64,000 bases of DNA from Selenomonas sp. TAMA-11512 (GTDB lineage Bacteria > Bacillota > Negativicutes > Selenomonadales > Selenomonadaceae): positions 2,092,501-2,156,500 of the forward strand of contig NZ_AP029018.1 in NCBI RefSeq assembly GCF_037076525.1, written 5' to 3'. Positions 1 to 49,840 of this stretch are shown here, piece by piece. The position numbers and the translations under genes are program-made. Under the pieces are notes generated by a model. The model was not told where the DNA came from, searched no databases, and was given only the letters and a program-made list of their open reading frames with translations. Within the stretch, counting starts at the first letter, position 1. Each line of letters begins with the position of its first letter.

Positions 1-35
1 GCGCCCGCGGCGAGAGTAATGATATCATGCTCCAT
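1..35 (-). CDS. hypE: HypE, hydrogenase maturation protein (N-terminal fragment, cut by window edge)
   Basis: Only the first 11 codons are inside the window. On the minus strand an ATG at 35 opens a frame reading MEHDIITLAAG, close to the conserved HypE start (ITLAHGAGG), with the usual His replaced by Ala. It overlaps the 3' end of hypD by 11 nt, the translational coupling usual in hyp operons. HypE dehydrates the HypF-made thiocarboxamide to the cyanide ligand of the NiFe site (family knowledge). The call rests on the short match plus position after hypC-hypD. Confidence 0.6.
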   Translation of the reverse strand, partial: MEHDIITLAAG

Positions 36-1140
36 AAGAAAACCTTGCCTTTCCATACTTCTGCCACGCGGCGCAAGTCCCCTCGACGGACACCATGCAG
101 GGACCGACGGCGTGTGTCGGCTTGCAGGCCTTATCAAAGAGCGCGCATTCGGGCGGCGTGATGACGCCCCGCAGCACTTCGCCGCAGCGGCAGGCGGTCG
201 GCTTGGCGCTCGCCTCCGCGACATCAAGCGGAAATGCTTTTTCAATGTCATACTCTGCAAAGGATGCACGCATGGAGAGTCCGGAGGCGGGAATCATCCC
301 TATGCCTCTCCACTCGCCCGGCACCGTCTCATACACCGTATCCATGATGCGCAGAGCAGCCGGATTTCCCTCGGGGCGCACAACACTCCCGTATTCGTTC
401 TCTACGCGCGCTTCTCCCCGCACGCTCTGCTGTACAAGGCGCAGTACCGCGCGCAGTATCTGCAGCGCCGTAAAGCCGCCGACGACCCCCGGCTTATGCG
501 CTTCGCCTTCCAGGAAGTCAAAGACGTGCGTGCCCGTGACGACGGAAGCGTGCCCCGGCAGAAGAAAGCCGTCCACGCGGACCTTCGGATCGTCGAGAAG
601 CATCCGCATTGCCGGCGGCACGAGCTTGTGCGCGGAGAGCATATAGAGATTTCGGATTCCCTGCTCTTTGGCGGCGAGCACGGTAGCTGCCGCCGTCGGC
701 GCCGTTGTCTCAAAGCCCACAGCCAGAAAGATGACCTTCTTGTCGGGCTGCTCCTTTGCCAGTTCGAGACAATCCATGGAAGAGTAGACAATGCGGATAT
801 CCGCTCCCTCTGCCTGCGCCTCGGCAAGCGAGGATTCGGATCCGGGCACCTTGAGCATATCGCCGAAGGTCGCGATCACGCAGTCCGGTCTCTTCGCGTA
901 GGCAATCGCCTTGTCCATGTAGCTGTCGGGCGTGACGCAGACGGGACATCCCGGTCCTGAGACGAGCTCGATATTTGTCGGCAGCATCTGCCGAATGCCC
1001 GCGCGAAAAATGGAAACGGTGTGTGTGCCGCAGACTTCCATGTAGCGGAGGCTGTGCCCCTCGCTCAGCACCTTGATCTCTCGCAGGATATCCCGCACCG
1101 CCGCCTTTTCCTCGGCAGCCGTCAGCTTTTTCCCGCTCAT
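25..1140 (-). CDS. hypD: HypD, hydrogenase Fe(CN)2CO assembly scaffold
   Basis: 371 residues, normal family length. The protein carries the Cys-rich signatures of HypD: MEVCGTHT near residue 34, GPGCPVCVTP near residue 62, and a C-terminal Cys cluster (TACRCGEVLRG and later Cys) that binds a [4Fe-4S] cluster. With HypC it holds the iron while CN and CO ligands are attached, before transfer to the hydrogenase large subunit; it acts in the cytoplasm. The ATG overlaps the hypC stop as ATGA and the gene runs into hypE, so the genes are translationally coupled. Confidence 0.96.
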   Translation of the reverse strand: MSGKKLTAAEEKAAVRDILREIKVLSEGHSLRYMEVCGTHTVSIFRAGIRQMLPTNIELVSGPGCPVCVTPDSYMDKAIAYAKRPDCVIATFGDMLKVPGSESSLAEAQAEGADIRIVYSSMDCLELAKEQPDKKVIFLAVGFETTAPTAAATVLAAKEQGIRNLYMLSAHKLVPPAMRMLLDDPKVRVDGFLLPGHASVVTGTHVFDFLEGEAHKPGVVGGFTALQILRAVLRLVQQSVRGEARVENEYGSVVRPEGNPAALRIMDTVYETVPGEWRGIGMIPASGLSMRASFAEYDIEKAFPLDVAEASAKPTACRCGEVLRGVITPPECALFDKACKPTHAVGPCMVSVEGTCAAWQKYGKARFSYGA

Positions 1141-1385
1141 GAGACGTCCATCCCCAACTCTACCGTGCGCTCGCCGCCGTGCATCTCATCGAGAAGCGCA
1201 TACGTCTCCTGCGCGTCCTTTTCCTCGACGATCTGCATCGCAAACCCCGCGTGGACGAGGACGTAATCTCCCGTCTTCGCCTCCGGAAGCAGCATGAGGC
1301 TCGCCTGGCGCCGCACGCCTTTGACTTCGACCTGGGCGATGGCGCCGTTCATATCAATAATTTTAGCCGGAATAGCTAAACACAT
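1137..1385 (-). CDS. hypC: HypC, hydrogenase assembly chaperone
   Basis: 82 residues starting MCLAIPAKI, the hallmark N-terminus in which Cys2 binds the iron centre and the large-subunit precursor. The frame extends upstream, but this ATG at 1385 is the right start: HypC function needs Cys at position 2, and a GGGAGTG ribosome site lies just before it. It sits 4 nt after the maturation protease gene and overlaps hypD by 4 nt. The role is to shuttle Fe(CN)2CO between HypD and apo-HyaB. Confidence 0.95.
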   Translation of the reverse strand: MCLAIPAKIIDMNGAIAQVEVKGVRRQASLMLLPEAKTGDYVLVHAGFAMQIVEEKDAQETYALLDEMHGGERTVELGMDVS

Positions 1386-1389
1386 ATTT

Positions 1390-1980
1390 TCACTCCCAAA
1401 TCCTTTCTTCCGCCACGATTGTATCGTCCAGCACGGCGTCATGCTCTTTCTTCACCGGCTCGATGCCCCAGCGTCTGAGCTCCGCCAGACTCGCCTCGAG
1501 AATGGCGGGCAGAAGGGCTTTCATCGGCTCGGTAAGCGCGACACCTGCGCCGACGTCGTAAGGCTGCACACCGAGCACGACGACCTCGGGGATACGGCGT
1601 CCCGTGACGGAAAGCGTCGCCAGCACGTCCTGTATGCCCACTTCATGCGCCGACAGTTTATCCTGAAAGTGCTCCATGACAGCGTCATCTTGAAATCGGA
1701 ACAGGGATCCCGCCGGCTCTTTGCCGTTGATGGAATCGATGACGAGGAGCTTCTGCGTCCCCGTTACAAACTGCAGAAGCTCGACGCCGAGCGTGCCGCC
1801 ATCGATGATCTGTACCGTATCGGGGAATTCGTAGTTCATATCGAGAAGCTCGACGGCACGCACGCCAAAGCCTTCGTCCTGCAGGATGACGTTGCCGATG
1901 CCGAGCACTGTAACGGGGGGCACGGCGAAAAGCGCATCGTCGTCTTCCGCGCCTGCTGTCGGTAAAATACAATCCGTCAT
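1390..1980 (-). CDS. hyaD: Hydrogenase maturation endopeptidase (HyaD/HybD family)
   Basis: 196 residues from the ATG at 1980, which overlaps the hypB stop as ATGA and has an AGAGGG-type ribosome site; a longer frame upstream has no support. The protein shows the family motif GIGNVILQDEGFGV, with the nickel-sensing Glu, and DGGTLGVELL, with the second metal-ligand Asp. It removes the C-terminal tail of the large subunit after nickel insertion. Its natural substrate is HyaB at 4087-5991, which still encodes a 24-residue tail after DPCMACSTH. Placement among the hyp genes supports this pairing. Confidence 0.93.
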   Translation of the reverse strand: MTDCILPTAGAEDDDALFAVPPVTVLGIGNVILQDEGFGVRAVELLDMNYEFPDTVQIIDGGTLGVELLQFVTGTQKLLVIDSINGKEPAGSLFRFQDDAVMEHFQDKLSAHEVGIQDVLATLSVTGRRIPEVVVLGVQPYDVGAGVALTEPMKALLPAILEASLAELRRWGIEPVKKEHDAVLDDTIVAEERIWE

Positions 1981-2639
1981 TTCTTTTCCCTCTTCCGCTT
2001 TACCTGCTTCCGCAGCCAGTCCAGCCACGCCTCAATGCCCTCATGACTGCGGCAGGAAGTTTCGACAATCTCGATGCCCGGATGGATGGTCTCGATGTCT
2101 TCCTTGGCGCTCGCCATATCAAAATCGGTGAACGGCAGAAGATCGACCTTGTTCAGTACGGCAATATCCGCCTCTTTGAACATCAGCGGGTATTTCAGCG
2201 GTTTGTCATCCCCCTCGGTCACCGAGAGGACGACGGCCTTTTTATCCGACCCCAGCTCAAACTCGGCAGGGCAGACGAGATTGCCGACGTTCTCGATGAT
2301 GAGGAGATCGAGCTCATCGAGGGAAAGCGCGCCGAGAGCACGCTGCACCATGGGCGCGTCAAGATGGCAGCCGCCGCTCGTATTGATCTGGATAACGGGC
2401 GCTCCGTGCGCTTCAATGCGCTTCGCGTCTTTATCGGTGAATAGATCGCCCTCAATGACGGCAAGCCGGAGCTCTCCCTTGAGCGCCTCGAGCGTACACT
2501 CCAAGAGCGACGTCTTCCCCGCCCCCGGTGAGCCCATCAGATTGAGCACAAAGAGCTTCTTTTCGTTAAAGAGCGCCTCATTTTCCCCCGCAACTCGGTC
2601 ATTTTTCCCGAGAATATTTTCCATGACTCGGACTTCCAT
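1977..2639 (-). CDS. hypB: HypB, nickel-insertion GTPase
   Basis: 220 residues from the ATG at 2639 (GGAG, 7-nt spacing), 4 nt after hypA. SIMIBI-class GTPase: P-loop GSPGAGKTS, the metal site TSGGCHLDA and the NKVDLLPF specificity motif. It delivers nickel to the large subunit together with HypA. The protein begins MEVRVMENILGKND and lacks both the N-terminal CxxCGC nickel site of the E. coli type and any His-rich stretch. A CxxCGC-type motif is found instead on the small protein at 3056-3298. Confidence 0.95.
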   Translation of the reverse strand: MEVRVMENILGKNDRVAGENEALFNEKKLFVLNLMGSPGAGKTSLLECTLEALKGELRLAVIEGDLFTDKDAKRIEAHGAPVIQINTSGGCHLDAPMVQRALGALSLDELDLLIIENVGNLVCPAEFELGSDKKAVVLSVTEGDDKPLKYPLMFKEADIAVLNKVDLLPFTDFDMASAKEDIETIHPGIEIVETSCRSHEGIEAWLDWLRKQVKRKREKK

Positions 2640-2643
2640 CTTG

Positions 2644-2985
2644 TCACTCCATTTCCAAATAGGCGACCTGCATCTCTCGTCCGGAGATGATCTCCAGGAC
2701 GCCCGCCTTGCACGCGGGACATATAAAGTTATAGCGCTCGACGTGCCCTTCCGCGCCGCAGCTCGTACAGCGCCCGATGAGAGGCACATCTTCAATGGCG
2801 AGCTCCGCCCTCTCGGCAATCGTCCCCTGCCGAACCGTCTCCCAGCAAAAGGCGAGAGACTCGCGCTCCACGCTCGCCATCTCGCCGAGGCGAAGAGCCA
2901 CCTTCCCGATGCGGGCGGCATTGTTTTGCTTCGCGTAGTCGAGAGCGATATCTAAAATGCCCTCGGCAATGCTCATTTCATGCAT
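2644..2985 (-). CDS. hypA: HypA, nickel metallochaperone
   Basis: 113 residues, the usual length. It starts MHEMSIAEG; the Met1-His2-Glu3 group binds nickel in this family. Two CxxC pairs (CTSC and CPAC, near residues 73 and 89) form the structural zinc site. Partner of HypB in nickel delivery. No strong ribosome site precedes the ATG. A 70-nt gap with a perfect hairpin separates it from the upstream gene, so its expression may differ from that of the structural genes. Confidence 0.94.
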   Translation of the reverse strand: MHEMSIAEGILDIALDYAKQNNAARIGKVALRLGEMASVERESLAFCWETVRQGTIAERAELAIEDVPLIGRCTSCGAEGHVERYNFICPACKAGVLEIISGREMQVAYLEME

Positions 2986-3012
2986 ACAGATTATACCTTA
3001 ATATACCAGTAA

Positions 3013-3036
3013 GAGCTGTCACAAACGTGACAGCTC
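3013..3036. other. Perfect hairpin between hydrogenase structural and maturation genes
   Basis: GAGCTGTCAC, loop AAAC, GTGACAGCTC: a 10-bp perfect stem in the 70-nt gap before hypA. No T-run follows on either strand, so it is not a standard terminator. It could be an mRNA-processing or stability element setting different levels of structural and maturation genes. The same 10-mer (minus strand 51905-51914) occurs in the serS leader. Confidence 0.6.
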
Positions 3037-3055
3037 CTCTATTCTTACACACACA

Positions 3056-3298
3056 TCAAATCGCGGCGGATAGACCGCGGGACTCAAACTGACCGATGAT
3101 CTCTGTCAGCTTCGTCTTTTTCGGGCTGTAGTCGACGGTCGTCTCCCCGTCATGCGTATGGATATGCACGTATAGAACGCCGGGAAGGCCCAAAAGCGCC
3201 TTTTCCACATCCTTCGCATTTTCCTCCGTATAGCCCTCGACGTTAAATACCAGGCGGGTATTGCCGTTGGCCCCGCCGCAGCCGCATTCAGCACACAT
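3056..3298 (-). CDS. Small HMA-like metal-binding protein with HypB-type CxxCGC N-terminus
   Basis: 80 residues. The N-terminus MCAECGCGG matches the pattern of the high-affinity nickel site at the start of E. coli HypB (MCTTCGCG). The rest looks like a ferredoxin-fold heavy-metal-associated domain (beta-alpha-beta-beta-alpha-beta): TRLVFNVEGY, a helix rich in Glu/Lys, GVLYVHIHTHDGETTVDYS, then a last helix. The usual CxxC loop of HMA domains is absent; HIHTHD offers extra ligands. The start overlaps the hyaC stop (TAATG), so translation is coupled to the hydrogenase genes. A role as nickel donor or store for HypA/HypB is inference; the protein is not assigned to a named family. Confidence 0.8.
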   Translation of the reverse strand: MCAECGCGGANGNTRLVFNVEGYTEENAKDVEKALLGLPGVLYVHIHTHDGETTVDYSPKKTKLTEIIGQFESRGLSAAI

Positions 3299-4017
3299 TA
3301 CTTGACTCTGCCCCCTGTCTTCTGCTGTTCCGGATGATTGATCTCGTTCGCATCGAGAGGCTCGTGCGCCAGGATCTTCGATCCGGAAAACATGGACGAG
3401 ACTTCGCTCTCGCCCTCCATAAACTCCGCACGGATGACCATGTAGACATGACCGATAACAAAGAGGATGATCGCCCAGGCCACATAGTGATGGACGACGT
3501 GCGTCATGTACTCGTTGCCAAGTGCCGTATTCAGCCAGAGGAAGAACGGAGCCATCACGCCGCCCGGCTCATTAGCCGCATACATGGCAAATCCCGTCAC
3601 GATCTCGATCAGGACGAGCACGTAGAGAAATGCATAGGAGCAACGCGCCAGGGGATTTCTGAGGAACGAAGCGTGCGAGCTCTTGAGGAGCATATAGTGC
3701 AGCGCCACATCCACCGTTTCGCGATAAAAGTGACCTTCCCAAAAGCGTGGGAAGAGACGATCGCCCTTGTTGACGATGAAGCCATAGATGCGGAACACAA
3801 AAGACGCCACAAAGAGATATGCCGCAAGGAAGTGGATATTGCGAATGTTATCCACCGTCATCCCGCTGAACGTCGGCTCGACGGCATATATCACCCACGG
3901 CTCGGTAATCATCAATCCCGTTGCGAAGAGTACGGCAATCGAAATTGCCATGATCCAATGGAAGATTCGCAGCCACGGACTGAAAATATAGTAAATCTTG
4001 CGTTTTACTTCTTTCAT
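3298..4017 (-). CDS. hyaC: [NiFe] hydrogenase b-type cytochrome subunit
   Basis: 239 residues, typical for HyaC/CybH. Four hydrophobic segments, with haem-ligand His in RIFHWIMAISIA (near residue 18), NIHFLAAYLF and the C-terminal HHYVAWAIILFVIGH region. It anchors the hydrogenase dimer in the cytoplasmic membrane and passes electrons from HyaA to quinone. The gene lies 69 nt after hyaB and overlaps the small metal-binding gene. Its presence marks the enzyme as a respiratory, H2-oxidising type. Confidence 0.95.
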   Translation of the reverse strand: MKEVKRKIYYIFSPWLRIFHWIMAISIAVLFATGLMITEPWVIYAVEPTFSGMTVDNIRNIHFLAAYLFVASFVFRIYGFIVNKGDRLFPRFWEGHFYRETVDVALHYMLLKSSHASFLRNPLARCSYAFLYVLVLIEIVTGFAMYAANEPGGVMAPFFLWLNTALGNEYMTHVVHHYVAWAIILFVIGHVYMVIRAEFMEGESEVSSMFSGSKILAHEPLDANEINHPEQQKTGGRVK

Positions 4018-4086: not shown

Positions 4087-5991
4087 TTATTTCTCTGCCT
4101 GCGTCCCCGAATACGGGTCCGTCGTGATCGTATTGATCTTCTCACCCTTTGCATTGAATACATGCGTTGAGCAGGCCATGCAGGGGTCAAAGGAGCGAAT
4201 GACCTTGACAATCTCCAGCGGTTTATCCGGAATCTGAACATGCGTGTCCATCATGGCGAGCTCGTAAGCGCCATGTCCCGCCTTATCATCACGCGGGCAG
4301 GCGTTCCATGTCGTCGGGACGACGCACTGATAGTTGTCAATGCGGCCGTTCTTGATCGTGACCCAGTGAGAAAGTCCGCCGCGCGGCGCCTCATACAGGC
4401 CGACACCCTTCGTCTCCGCAGGCCAGGTGCGCGGCTCCCACTTGTCCGCGTTCGCGGTCTGGTAGTCGCCCGACTTGAGGTTCATGATGAGCTTGTCGAA
4501 GAAGTACTTGCCGATCTCCGCATGGAGCTGCGCGTCGAGACCTCTCGCCGCCGTACGGCCGACCATCGTCGGAAGCCATACCTCCGGCGCGAGTCCGAGC
4601 GCACCCGAAACGGCCCGGATCTGATCCAGCATCAGCTTTTCCGCCCACGTAGGCTCGCCGAGCTTGCCTTCCTTCGCCTTCTGATATACAACGATATAGC
4701 GCGACAGAGGTCCGACTTCGGCAAGCTTTCCGCGCCATTTCGGCGTCTTGAGCCAGGAGTACTTGCCCTTCTCGTCAAGTGCCTTCCAGTTGGTCGGCGT
4801 ACCCTCCTTCGGGGCCGTCATCTTCGGCTTTGTCTGGCCTTCCCACGGATGGAGGTCCGCCTTGGAGCCGTCGTACTCGTACCAGGCATGCTGGACACTT
4901 TCCGTCATCGCCTCCGGGTTGGAGTAATCCGCCGGATCAATCGGCGTATACTTGGCCTTCGGCGTGCCGAAGCCCTCAACGACGCCGTCACAGCGGATGA
5001 GTAGATTCTTCTGGAAGCTGCCGTTCGAAGTGCCGCTGTACTCTTCCTCCGGGTACGCGCCAAAGGCGAGGACGCACTGCTTCGCCATGCCGCCGCCGTC
5101 AACGCGGCCCGCCTTGACATAGGCGTCACCGATCGCGAGGAGATCCGGAATATAGTATTCGTTGACGAGCGTGCGCGTCAGATTGATTGCGCGGTCGACG
5201 ATGGCGAGGCGTGCCGTATTGATCGGCGCATTGCCGTCTTCCAGGCTGATCGCGCAGGGCATGCCGCCGACGATGTAGTGCGGATGCGGATTCTTTCCGC
5301 CGAAGACGACATGCGGCTTGACGAACTCACGATGCTTATCGAGCATCTCGAGGTAGTGAACGACCGCGAGGAGATGCACCTCCGGAGGCAGGAGCTTGTA
5401 GTCCGGATGATCCCACCAGTTGGCGCTGAAGATACCGAGCTGGCCGGAGTCGACAATCTGCTGGATCTTGGCCTTGAACGTCGCGAAGTACGTCGGGCTG
5501 CCATTCGGGAAGTCCTTCGGATACGCTTCCGTGTTGATTCCGGCAGGTCCTGCAAACGGAAGTCTGTATTTTTGCAGCAGCGCCGCCTGCAGATTCGATG
5601 TGGCCATCGGATCGGCCGCTAGCGCCTCAACGGGACTGACCCAGTCGAGCGCATGAAGATGATAGAAATGGACGACGTGATCCTGGACCGTCAGGCTGGC
5701 CGCCATGATATTGCGAATATAGTTTGCATTCTTCGGAATCTTGATGCCGAGCGCGTCCTCAACGGCGCGTACGGCGCAAAGCGCGTGCGCCGTCGTACAG
5801 ACGCCGCAGATGCGCTGAATATAGGCCCAAGCGTCGCGAGGATCGCGATCGTGCATGACAAGCTCGAGCCCGCGCCAAGCCGTACCCGAGGAGACGGCAT
5901 CCTGCACGCGGCCCGTTGCTTCATCCACCTGTATCTCGACGCGCAGATGACCTTCGATTCTTGTTACGGGATCTACAACAACGTGTTTCAT
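4087..5991 (-). CDS. hyaB: [NiFe] hydrogenase large subunit, group 1 type
   Basis: 634 residues. Nickel ligands are visible at both ends: RICGVC at residues 60-65 and DPCMACSTH at 602-610. The 24 residues after His610 are the tail cut by HyaD during maturation. The protein holds the NiFe(CN)2CO active site and splits H2; with HyaA it faces the periplasm. It starts 4 nt after hyaA. Length, both motifs and the cytochrome partner agree with the membrane-bound uptake class. Confidence 0.98.
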   Translation of the reverse strand: MKHVVVDPVTRIEGHLRVEIQVDEATGRVQDAVSSGTAWRGLELVMHDRDPRDAWAYIQRICGVCTTAHALCAVRAVEDALGIKIPKNANYIRNIMAASLTVQDHVVHFYHLHALDWVSPVEALAADPMATSNLQAALLQKYRLPFAGPAGINTEAYPKDFPNGSPTYFATFKAKIQQIVDSGQLGIFSANWWDHPDYKLLPPEVHLLAVVHYLEMLDKHREFVKPHVVFGGKNPHPHYIVGGMPCAISLEDGNAPINTARLAIVDRAINLTRTLVNEYYIPDLLAIGDAYVKAGRVDGGGMAKQCVLAFGAYPEEEYSGTSNGSFQKNLLIRCDGVVEGFGTPKAKYTPIDPADYSNPEAMTESVQHAWYEYDGSKADLHPWEGQTKPKMTAPKEGTPTNWKALDEKGKYSWLKTPKWRGKLAEVGPLSRYIVVYQKAKEGKLGEPTWAEKLMLDQIRAVSGALGLAPEVWLPTMVGRTAARGLDAQLHAEIGKYFFDKLIMNLKSGDYQTANADKWEPRTWPAETKGVGLYEAPRGGLSHWVTIKNGRIDNYQCVVPTTWNACPRDDKAGHGAYELAMMDTHVQIPDKPLEIVKVIRSFDPCMACSTHVFNAKGEKINTITTDPYSGTQAEK

Positions 5992-5995
5992 TTAT

Positions 5996-7081
5996 TTACT
6001 CACCTCTCCCCTCTTCCGCCTTTTCTTTCTCGTGCTGTGAGCGCTGAATGAGGCTGGCGGCACCGTGTGCGGCGACACCCGCGACCGTCGCTACGGCCAG
6101 ACCCGCGCCGATCTTGTCAACACTTGGGAACGGCGGATACTCCGGCAGGCGTTCATAGAGAGGATCGTTATCCCAGAAGCCGGCATTCGTACATCCTATG
6201 CAGGGCGCGCCCGACTGAATCGGATAGCTCATGCCCTCGAACCAGCGCAGATTGCCGCAGGACGCGTATGTCTCCGGACCGCGGCAGCCGAGCTTATAGA
6301 GACACCAGCCGCCCTTTGCGCCGGCATCGTCAAATCGCTCCGCAAACATGCCCGCGTCAAAGAACGGACGACGGTAGCAGGTATCGTGGATGCGGTTCCC
6401 GAAGAACTGCTTCGGACGTCCTTCCAGATCGAGCTCCGGAAGCTTCCCGAAAAGCGCGACGTGCATGACAACGCCCGTCATGACCTCGGGGATAGGAGGA
6501 CAGCCCGGTACGTTGACGACAGGCGTCCTTCCGACATAGTGTCCGATGCCGGCGGAACCCGTCGGGTTCGGCTTTGCCGCCTGAATGCCGCCCGATGTGG
6601 CACACGTACCGTAGGCAATGACGCAGGCCGCATTTTCCGCGGCTCTCTGAAATGTTTCGAGGAAAGGATGTCCGCCCGACATGCAGTATACGCCGTTTTC
6701 CTTCGTGGCGACAGCGCCCTCGACAGCAAGGATATACTTGCCCTTGTACTTCTCCATCGTAGCCTCGAGATGCTCCTCGAAAGGCGCGCCCGACGCGGCG
6801 CTCAGGAGATGATCGTACTCCAGAGCGATCTGGCTCAAAATAAGATCCGACGCCATCGGCGCGGCCGAACGAATGAACGACTCGTCGCAGCCCGTGCACT
6901 CATGCCCATGCAGCCAGATGACAACCGGCAGCGGATTCGTCTCGGCAGCCTCAACGACTTTCGAGACCATGTCCGTGGAAAGCCCCATCAGAGATGTCAG
7001 CGCCACACAGCCCTTCAGGAAGCTGCGGCGGCTCATGCCGTTTCTCAGATAGTAATCCCACATACTTTCGCGTTTCTCCAC
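5996..7081 (-). CDS. hyaA: [NiFe] hydrogenase small subunit with Tat signal
   Basis: 361 residues from a GTG at 7081, chosen because AGGAGG lies 7 nt upstream. A twin-arginine motif (SRRSFLKG, residues 17-24) precedes a hydrophobic stretch, so the folded dimer is exported by Tat. HGHECTGCDES (Cys62, Cys65) begins the ligands of the proximal [4Fe-4S] cluster; further Cys for the medial and distal clusters are in the C-terminal half (RWFEGMSYPIQSGAPCIGC). A C-terminal hydrophobic segment (GLAVATVAGVAAHGAA) is the membrane anchor. First gene of the operon. Confidence 0.97.
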   Translation of the reverse strand: MEKRESMWDYYLRNGMSRRSFLKGCVALTSLMGLSTDMVSKVVEAAETNPLPVVIWLHGHECTGCDESFIRSAAPMASDLILSQIALEYDHLLSAASGAPFEEHLEATMEKYKGKYILAVEGAVATKENGVYCMSGGHPFLETFQRAAENAACVIAYGTCATSGGIQAAKPNPTGSAGIGHYVGRTPVVNVPGCPPIPEVMTGVVMHVALFGKLPELDLEGRPKQFFGNRIHDTCYRRPFFDAGMFAERFDDAGAKGGWCLYKLGCRGPETYASCGNLRWFEGMSYPIQSGAPCIGCTNAGFWDNDPLYERLPEYPPFPSVDKIGAGLAVATVAGVAAHGAASLIQRSQHEKEKAEEGRGE

Positions 7082-48103: not shown

Positions 48104-48133
48104 TAAGGAAACGCGGATATGAAGTCTATCAGC
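48104..48133 (-). repeat. MITE end remnant at the hcp 3' end
   Basis: On the minus strand CTGATAGACTTCAT followed by CGCGTTTCCTTA matches the MITE end CTGACAGACTTCAT...CAGCGCTTCCTTA with a few losses. It supplies the hcp TGA stop. Confidence 0.6.
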
Positions 48134-49760
48134 CGACCATGCTCTTTATGTCGCTCTCCACATCCGTAATGCCGCCGATGCCGAAGGTCTCGACGAGAAC
48201 CTTCCCGACATTCGGCGAGAGGAATGCGGGAAGCGTGGGGCCGAGATGGATATTCTTGACGCCGAGGTGCAGGAGCGCGAGCAGGACGATGACCGCCTTC
48301 TGCTCGTACCACGCGATGTTGTACGCTACGGGGAGCTCATTGACGTCCGCGAGGCCGAAGACTTCCTTGAGCTTCAGCGCGATGAGCGCAAGCGAGTAGG
48401 AATCGTTGCACTGACCGGCGTCGAGGACGCGCGGAATGCCGCCGATATCGCCGAGCGGAAGCTTGATGTACTTGTACTTCGCGCAGCCTGCCGTGAGGAT
48501 GACCGTGTCCTTCGGCAGTGCCTCGGCAAATTCCTTGTAGTATCCGCGGCTCTTCATGCGGCCGTCGCAGCCCGCCATGACGATGAACTTCTTGATCGCG
48601 CCCGACTTGATCGCATCGACGACCTTGTCCGCCACGGCGAAGACCTGCTCGTGCGCGAAGCCGCCGACGATTTCGCCCTGCTCAAGCTCCTTCGGAGGCG
48701 GGCACGTCTTTGCCATCTCGATGACGGCAGAGAAGTCCTTCCTGCCGTCCTTCTCCTCGATGTGCGGACAGCCCGGGAATCCGACCGCCGCCGTCGTGAA
48801 GACGCGCGCCTTGTAGCTGTCCTTCGGCGGAACGAGGCAGTTCGTCGTGAAGAGCACGGGGCCTTGGAACGCTTCAAACTCTTCCTTCTGCTGCCACCAC
48901 GCGTTGCCGTAGTTGCCGACGAGGTGCTTGTACTGCTTGAGCTTCGGATAGTAGTGCGCGGGAAGCATCTCACCGTGCGTGTAGACATCGACACCCGTGC
49001 CCTCGGTCTGCTTGAGCAGCTCCTCCAGATCGGCGAGGTCGTGCCCCGTGATGAGGATGCCCGGGTTCTTTCCGACGCCGAGCTGCACCTTCGTGATCTC
49101 GGGGTTGCCGTAGCTCTCCGTGTTCGCCTTGTCAAGAAGCGCCATGACGTCGACGCCGAACTTGCCCGTCTCGAGGGCAAGCGCCGTGAGATCATCGCCC
49201 GAGAGGCTGTCGTCGAGAAGCATGGAGAGCGCTCTCTGCATGAAGATCTCGATGTCTTCCGACTCGTATCCGAGCGCGTTCGCGTGCTTGAGGTACGCCG
49301 CCATGCCCTTCAGTCCGTACATCGTAAGCTCGCGAAAGCTGCGGACATCTTCGTTTTCTGTCGCGAGGACGCCGACCTTCTTTGCCTTTGCTGCAAAGTC
49401 CGCCTGCGATCCCGTCCACGTGGCCGCTTCGGGCAGGTTTGCCGTCTCCTTCAGCCTGCCGCGAAGCTCGTCGCGGACGGCGAACGTCTCCGCCGAACGC
49501 GCGTCAATGACGTTCTGATCGAAGTTCGCGTTTGTGATCGTGATGAAGAGGTTGAGCGTGATGCGGTGCGCGACGCTCGCGTCAACCGCCTGCCCCTCGC
49601 CGCGCAGGCGATGCGCGACCGCCGCGAGTCCCTTCGTCGCGTAGATCAGGAGGTCCTGCGCGGCGGCTACATCCGCCGTCTTACCGCAGACGCCCTGCAC
49701 CTGACAGCCTTTTCCGCCCGCCGTCTCCTGACACTGAAAGCAAAACATTTTCGGATCCAT
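48129..49760 (-). CDS. hcp: Hydroxylamine reductase / hybrid-cluster protein
   Basis: 543 residues from the ATG at 49760 (AAGGAGAG upstream). The N-terminus [15 protein letters not shown] with VQGVCG holds the proximal FeS-cluster Cys; the C-terminal half has the hybrid-cluster ligands ([37 protein letters not shown]). This is the class with the compact CxxC spacing of strict anaerobes. Hcp handles nitric oxide and hydroxylamine stress in the cytoplasm. Single gene; a short palindrome lies upstream, and the stop codon lies in a MITE remnant. Confidence 0.96.
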
Positions 49761-49840
49761 ATAAATCTCTCCTTGCTGTGATAATCTCAATATTTGGGTT
49801 TCACTGCATTCATGATAGCAAGGAGTTATACAAGGATTCG

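Follow-up and report, generated by a model that had tools for sequence, protein, structure and literature searches.

A small HMA-type protein with a HypB-like CxxCGC start in hydrogenase operons of Selenomonadaceae, a candidate nickel chaperone

The hydrogenase operon of Selenomonas sp. TAMA-11512

The window analysed here, a stretch of 64,000 nucleotides from Selenomonas sp. TAMA-11512, starts with a [NiFe]-hydrogenase operon on the minus strand, in which hyaA, hyaB, and hyaC are followed by a small gene, hypA, hypB, a hyaD-type gene, hypC, and hypD. The features referred to below are the following (window coordinates, evidence in brackets):

5996..7081, minus strand: [NiFe]-hydrogenase small subunit (hyaA) with a Tat-like signal, SRRSFLK (open reading frame; named from sequence and operon position)
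4087..5991, minus strand: [NiFe]-hydrogenase large subunit (hyaB) (open reading frame; named from sequence and operon position)
3298..4017, minus strand: hyaC, cytochrome b subunit (Pfam Ni_hydr_CYTB)
3056..3298, minus strand: small gene, 80 aa, MCAECGCGG tail and HMA-type (ferredoxin-like) domain without CxxC (open reading frame, Pfam HMA at the cut-off, AlphaFold2 model, fold searches)
3275..3298, minus strand: codons M1-C2-A3-E4-C5-G6-C7-G8 of the small gene, HypB-type CxxCGC motif (alignment, core-only search, codons)
3158..3166, minus strand: codons H45-I46-H47 of the small gene, part of the conserved VHxH on strand beta-2 (alignment)
2644..2985, minus strand: hypA, N-terminal MHE motif kept (Pfam HypA, TIGR00100 above the cut-off)
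1977..2639, minus strand: hypB, type 1, metal residues in the G-domain only (TIGR00073 with 277 bits, translation)
1390..1980, minus strand: hyaD-type maturation endopeptidase (TIGR00140 at the cut-off, TIGR00072 above the cut-off)
1137..1385, minus strand: hypC (TIGR00074)
25..1140, minus strand: hypD (TIGR00075)

The small protein begins MCAECGCGGANGNTRLVF, and both its open reading frame and the Pfam match bear out the preliminary description of a gene between hyaC and hypA that joins MCAECGCGG to an HMA-type domain lacking its own CxxC. The same description proposed translational coupling to hyaC. At this locus the start codon shares one base with the hyaC stop (TAATG at 3300-3296), which makes coupling plausible here; in relatives, however, hyaC and the small gene are separated by 3 to about 500 nt, and close coupling is thus not a conserved trait.

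As for HypB, translation of 1977-2639 agrees with the earlier statement that it starts with the GTPase region and has neither CxxCGC nor a His-rich tail: it begins MEVRVMENILGKNDRVAGEN...GSPGAGKT with no N-terminal extension, the N-terminus MEVRVMENILGKND sitting a few residues before the GTPase region, and it keeps the CH...C metal residues of the G-domain (SGGCHLD, NLVCP). HypBs without the N-terminal region are known as type 1 (PMC10134865). Elsewhere in the window, an open reading frame at 48129-49790 (minus strand) resembles a hybrid cluster protein, judged from residues near its start.

Predicted fold and N-terminal motif of the small protein

Residues 28-72 of the small protein match Pfam HMA (PF00403) with 24.8 bits, which equals the gathering score, and a Pfam scan up to an E value of 1 reports HMA only, the SCO4226-like family DUF4242 not being among its matches. 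The AlphaFold2 model, built from 38 sequences, has a pLDDT of 89 and a beta-alpha-beta-beta-alpha-beta order (strands 14-21, 41-46, 52-57, and 77-79; helices 25-36 and 64-72), while the first ten residues, with an average of about 52, are probably flexible. Among solved structures, the ferredoxin-like copper chaperones CopZ/CsoZ come closest (Foldseek E value 3e-5), and superposition on 2qif and 6ff1 gives a Z score of 13.2 and an rmsd of 1.0-1.2 Å. Profile score, model, and fold match together place the protein in the HMA superfamily. It scores below the cut-off of NCBIfam CopZ models such as NF033795 (24 bits versus 91). Between beta-1 and alpha-1 the metal loop GMxCxxC is replaced by GYTEENAK, and this loop is absent throughout the hydrogenase-linked branch. 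Pfam and NCBIfam scans detected no GTPase domain (CobW/HypB/UreG) in the 80-aa protein.

Invariant positions of the 38-row alignment (A2) are limited to M1, C2, C5, C7, and G40, and V44-H45-I46-H47 is almost fully conserved. Since these rows had been picked by the motif, a fair test of its conservation is a search of every fetched locus that uses nothing but the domain core (three relatives, residues 13-80). This search yields 120 distinct frames, of which 116 have the motif right after the start codon (113 with MCxxC[G/H]C and three with the motif after a GTG start); of the other four, one is truncated at a contig end, one is a degenerate remnant, and two are copper-ATPase domains. Thus, the position of the motif at the start codon is more than chance. 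The cysteine codons vary synonymously (TGT 79 and TGC 38 at codon 2, TGC 79 and TGT 38 at codon 5, TGC 96 and TGT 21 at codon 7, in members that had been collected by motif), as do the glycine codons, which points to selection on the protein. VHxH is present in 103 of the 108 distinct members without CxxC, and its H45 and H47 are possible extra metal ligands.

The motif also occurs in other settings. Beyond E. coli, four HypBs from Pseudomonadota plasmids share the MCxxCGC start, each followed by a His-rich stretch (MCSTCGC in Providencia, MCTTCGC in Paraburkholderia, MCGTCGC in Novosphingobium, and MCTVCGC in Rhizobium). In one genus with the small gene (g10; genomes G009 and G037), the tail of the small protein has an embedded His-rich stretch, MCATCGCGNHDHHHDHD, closely resembling the starts of these HypBs. 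In another genome (G119, L057:1054-1494), the HMA domain is lost and an MCKECGCG peptide, MCKECGCGHRERTIHIHSRMRKRRESIVRKEEPK, continues in frame into HypA. HypA's own start and a Shine-Dalgarno-like AAGGAGG are retained there, so a separate HypA may still be produced, and this reading frame, seen in a single genome, may be a natural fusion or a decay product. A pattern scan for MCxxCGC in 47 genomes, chosen mainly for absence of the small gene, gave 13 sites in 11 genomes, among which only the G119 site adjoins hyp genes; the other sites read were a ferredoxin-like start, had in-frame stops, or were unremarkable.

Distribution, gene neighbourhoods, and the HypB of the class

The small gene is present in 126 of 151 Selenomonadaceae genomes and beyond this family, and its profile matches 221 of 380 class genomes at an E value of 1e-4, although those from outside the family include copper-ATPases and members of the CxxC-bearing sister branch described below. 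According to co-occurrence counts in Selenomonadaceae, 153 genomes have both the small gene and HypB, 8 the small gene only, 6 HypB only, and at least 17 neither (Fisher p 2e-13, ignoring kinship). Sixteen of 17 double absences, however, belong to one genus and most of the eight genomes with the small gene only are incomplete, so the co-occurrence amounts at best to a handful of independent events. In genus g21 (G020, G046, G062, G072, and others) neither the small gene nor HypB has a match over the cut-off, suggesting that this genus lost the [NiFe] system. Many Negativicutes carry HypB without the small gene, which is therefore dispensable for HypB function in general. No relatives were found on plasmids at an E value of 0.01. 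In Bacillota outside the class, the A2 search gives as top matches chiefly copper-ATPase domains and short HMA proteins, and MCxHCGC on a diverged HMA protein occurs in two genomes of a single further family (L254 and L262).

Regarding gene order, 42 of the 80 named loci have the small gene between hyaC and hypA. This order also occurs in families f10, f16, and f21, and family f31 has hyaC followed by the small gene, with hypA three genes on. In seven further loci only one flank has a hydrogenase gene, usually next to a contig edge, and in six the nearest scored neighbours are Nik-type ATPase genes. At least 23 copies are orphans away from all scored genes, with two more also at an edge; the orphans belong to a rumen/Quinella-like group, several lie near crcB or other unrelated genes, and in the tree they fall inside the f1 group, which is compatible with secondary moves.

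Several copies outside hydrogenase operons keep nickel-related company. At L211 (5507-7997) and L212, the small gene lies inside a Nik/Cnt-type ABC transporter operon, with an ATPase gene on either side, and a SAM methyltransferase gene follows; the family-5 binding protein upstream scores best against NikA models but below their cut-offs (at L211, 351 bits versus 600 for the nickel ABC binding protein family). At L213 it comes after a similar Nik-type transporter operon, at L214 it is convergent with larC, tail to tail, and at L220 and L221 it follows hypE, near hypB and hypF at L221 and clustered with cooC, cooS, and fused hypC-hypD genes (named by eye) at L220. At L216 a CxxC-less copy comes after an [FeFe]-hydrogenase and cytochrome b operon, with cbiM and cbiN (named by eye) upstream, in a genome (G289) where no HypB was found. 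This copy and the many orphans indicate that the role may be wider. None of the loci read by eye has a copper gene adjoining the small gene.

A sister branch, found in Veillonellaceae and some larger-genome families, combines MCxxCGC with the canonical HMA CxxC, and its genes adjoin tatA or LytR-like genes; the motif on HMA proteins is thus not confined to nickel contexts. The tree sets the CxxC branch, including the outgroup, apart from the hydrogenase-linked branch with support 100/98. In this tree of 80-column proteins few inner forks are resolved. In Veillonellaceae (L168, L170, L171, L172, L174, and L180) the genes encode MCKxCGC together with CxxC and usually a His-containing C-terminal tail, and adjoin tatA and a cupin-like gene.

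CxxCGC was found in no HypB of the Negativicutes sample (N-termini at 129 loci, many of them near-duplicates), and CxxCGC-less HypB is equally usual where a family has no small gene (f2, f9, f15, f32, and most of f8 and f25). HypB is encoded in 94 of 199 genomes sampled across Bacillota. Most of the open frames span 215-270 codons, versus 217 residues in the model, which outside Negativicutes mostly leaves no room for a long N-terminal extension, and the eleven N-termini read there (ten from outside Negativicutes) have no motif. The CxxCGC-less HypB, common with or without the small gene, is thus the ordinary type-1 form, independent of the small protein. The suggestion that the HypB motif was split onto the small protein is consequently unsupported, the HypBs of the class being CxxCGC-less even where the small gene is absent. 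A survey had been proposed of whether the small gene occurs only with such HypBs; this holds in the sample but is uninformative, as no other HypB form was found in the class. Nor was any operon seen with both the small gene and a CxxCGC-bearing HypB, the combination named beforehand as a refutation.

A candidate nickel chaperone and its alternatives

From the predicted fold, the conserved motif, and the genomic company, all of them observed, we infer the metal, its affinity, the geometry of the tail, and the hand-over to HypA/HypB. With moderate confidence, we read the small protein as a stand-alone soluble nickel metallochaperone or store feeding HypA/HypB. The nickel donor proposed in the preliminary description is thereby indirectly supported as regards a HypB-type CxxCGC on a separate protein among nickel-maturation and transport genes, and unsupported as regards an origin by splitting off HypB. 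In E. coli HypB, Cys2, Cys5, and Cys7 with the N-terminal amine bind Ni(II) with a sub-picomolar Kd, and the high-affinity site has been described as particular to that protein (PMC7055735). By analogy, the flexible tail (alpha-amine, Cys2, Cys5, and Cys7) would build a Ni(II) site like that of HypB, carried by an HMA-type domain that has lost its own copper site (GYTEENAK) and has the conserved H45-x-H47. The small protein would acquire cytoplasmic nickel and pass it to HypA/HypB, where HypB has only the low-affinity G-domain site, and HypA/HypB would then insert it into the hydrogenase large subunit. More tentatively, the hydrogenase-linked proteins may represent a nickel-dedicated HMA branch that gave up the copper loop and binds metal by a portable HypB-type start-codon CxxCGC; the carriers of this motif are HypB in Pseudomonadota, an HMA protein in Negativicutes, and, in one genome, a HypA reading frame.

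Caution is called for chiefly by the CopZ-like fold, by the sister branch with CxxC, and by those copies that do not lie near nickel genes. The relatives nearest in fold handle Cu(I), which counts against nickel, as does the L216 copy beside an [FeFe]-hydrogenase, an enzyme that needs no nickel. Three-cysteine sites bind Cu(I) well, and the small protein might accordingly be a chaperone or scavenger of copper or another soft metal, whose CxxCGC shields nickel insertion from copper; the sister branch with MCxxCGC and canonical CxxC indeed resembles a CopZ variant. However, the hydrogenase-linked branch has another sequence in place of the copper loop and is split from the CxxC branch at 100/98, and the neighbours are nickel maturation genes, Nik-type transport, hypE, and larC rather than any copper gene seen by eye, so that we regard this explanation as unlikely. 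A general nickel/cobalt buffer or store, for which hydrogenase operons are merely the commonest home, would account for the orphans, for the copies near Nik-type transporters, larC, cooS, and CbiM/N, and for the many HypB-bearing genomes without the small gene. It appears distinctly unlikely, however, given that the position immediately upstream of hypA is by far the commonest arrangement and that the small gene is missing together with HypB in one Selenomonadaceae genus and in G004.

As for an origin in which a HypB would have passed its CxxCGC segment on and then lost it, a reading compatible with a nickel role, motif and position are identical to those of HypB, the local HypB lacks the motif, and the motif-HypA frame of G119 shows that another partner can carry the segment. 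Nevertheless, all sampled HypBs of the class lack the motif whether or not the small gene is present, and elsewhere in Bacillota most HypBs are too short to include a long extension. With no CxxCGC-HypB ancestor visible in the class or in the Bacillota N-termini, this literal split is rejected as unsupported and seems very unlikely; as far as present data go, the small protein appears to have acquired the motif independently of HypB. C..C.C motifs can also serve redox roles, and a thiol/redox or hydrogenase-assembly function, for example near the cytochrome b subunit, with no nickel site at all, would fit the place directly after hyaC and the copy behind the [FeFe]-hydrogenase and cytochrome b operon. 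The placement of the cysteines (residues 2, 5, and 7), exactly as in HypB, the His-rich insert in one genus, and the copies near hypE, Nik, and larC genes, where no cytochrome b gene is present, however, make such a function highly improbable.

No papers were found on the small protein or on nickel chaperones of Negativicutes. Many bacteria have a HypB without the tight E. coli site, and a conserved small protein that has the motif of this site and is encoded in the same operon is a concrete candidate donor to HypA/HypB. If this is true, a nickel member is added to a fold known mainly for copper, the CxxCGC motif is shown to be a portable module, and the hydrogen metabolism of Selenomonadaceae from rumen and mouth gains a genetic handle.

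In comparison with known systems, the small protein shares with E. coli-type HypB the M-C-x-x-C-G-C at the very start, sometimes with a His-rich stretch behind it, and the hypA/hypB neighbourhood, but it has no GTPase domain and is a separate HMA-type carrier beside a type-1 HypB. It matches the NCBIfam model HypB_prefix_1 (NF053667) from residue 1, although with 12 bits versus a cut-off of 30 (E value 0.43) it is not a member. With CopZ/CsoZ/Atx1 (PF00403) it has the predicted ferredoxin-like fold in common, and differs in lacking the GMxCxxC loop, in the added CxxCGC tail and conserved VHxH, and in its hydrogenase and nickel gene context. SCO4226 of Streptomyces coelicolor, with 82 residues, binds nickel at its dimer surface via His/oxygen ligands with a Kd of about 10 uM (PMC4186839). 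Both proteins have about 80 residues, a ferredoxin-like fold (predicted for the small protein), and no MT/HCxxC motif; SCO4226, which binds Ni(II), however, has no cysteine motif and is not described in a hydrogenase operon. CooT, a small nickel protein of CO dehydrogenase maturation, uses Cys2 in nickel binding (PMC6006190). It consists of seven beta-strands, with no CxxCGC described and no HMA fold, in contrast to the predicted beta-alpha-beta-beta-alpha-beta order here; alike are the small size, the accessory role (putative here), and Cys2, invariant in the 38-row alignment, and the L220 relative clusters with cooC and cooS.
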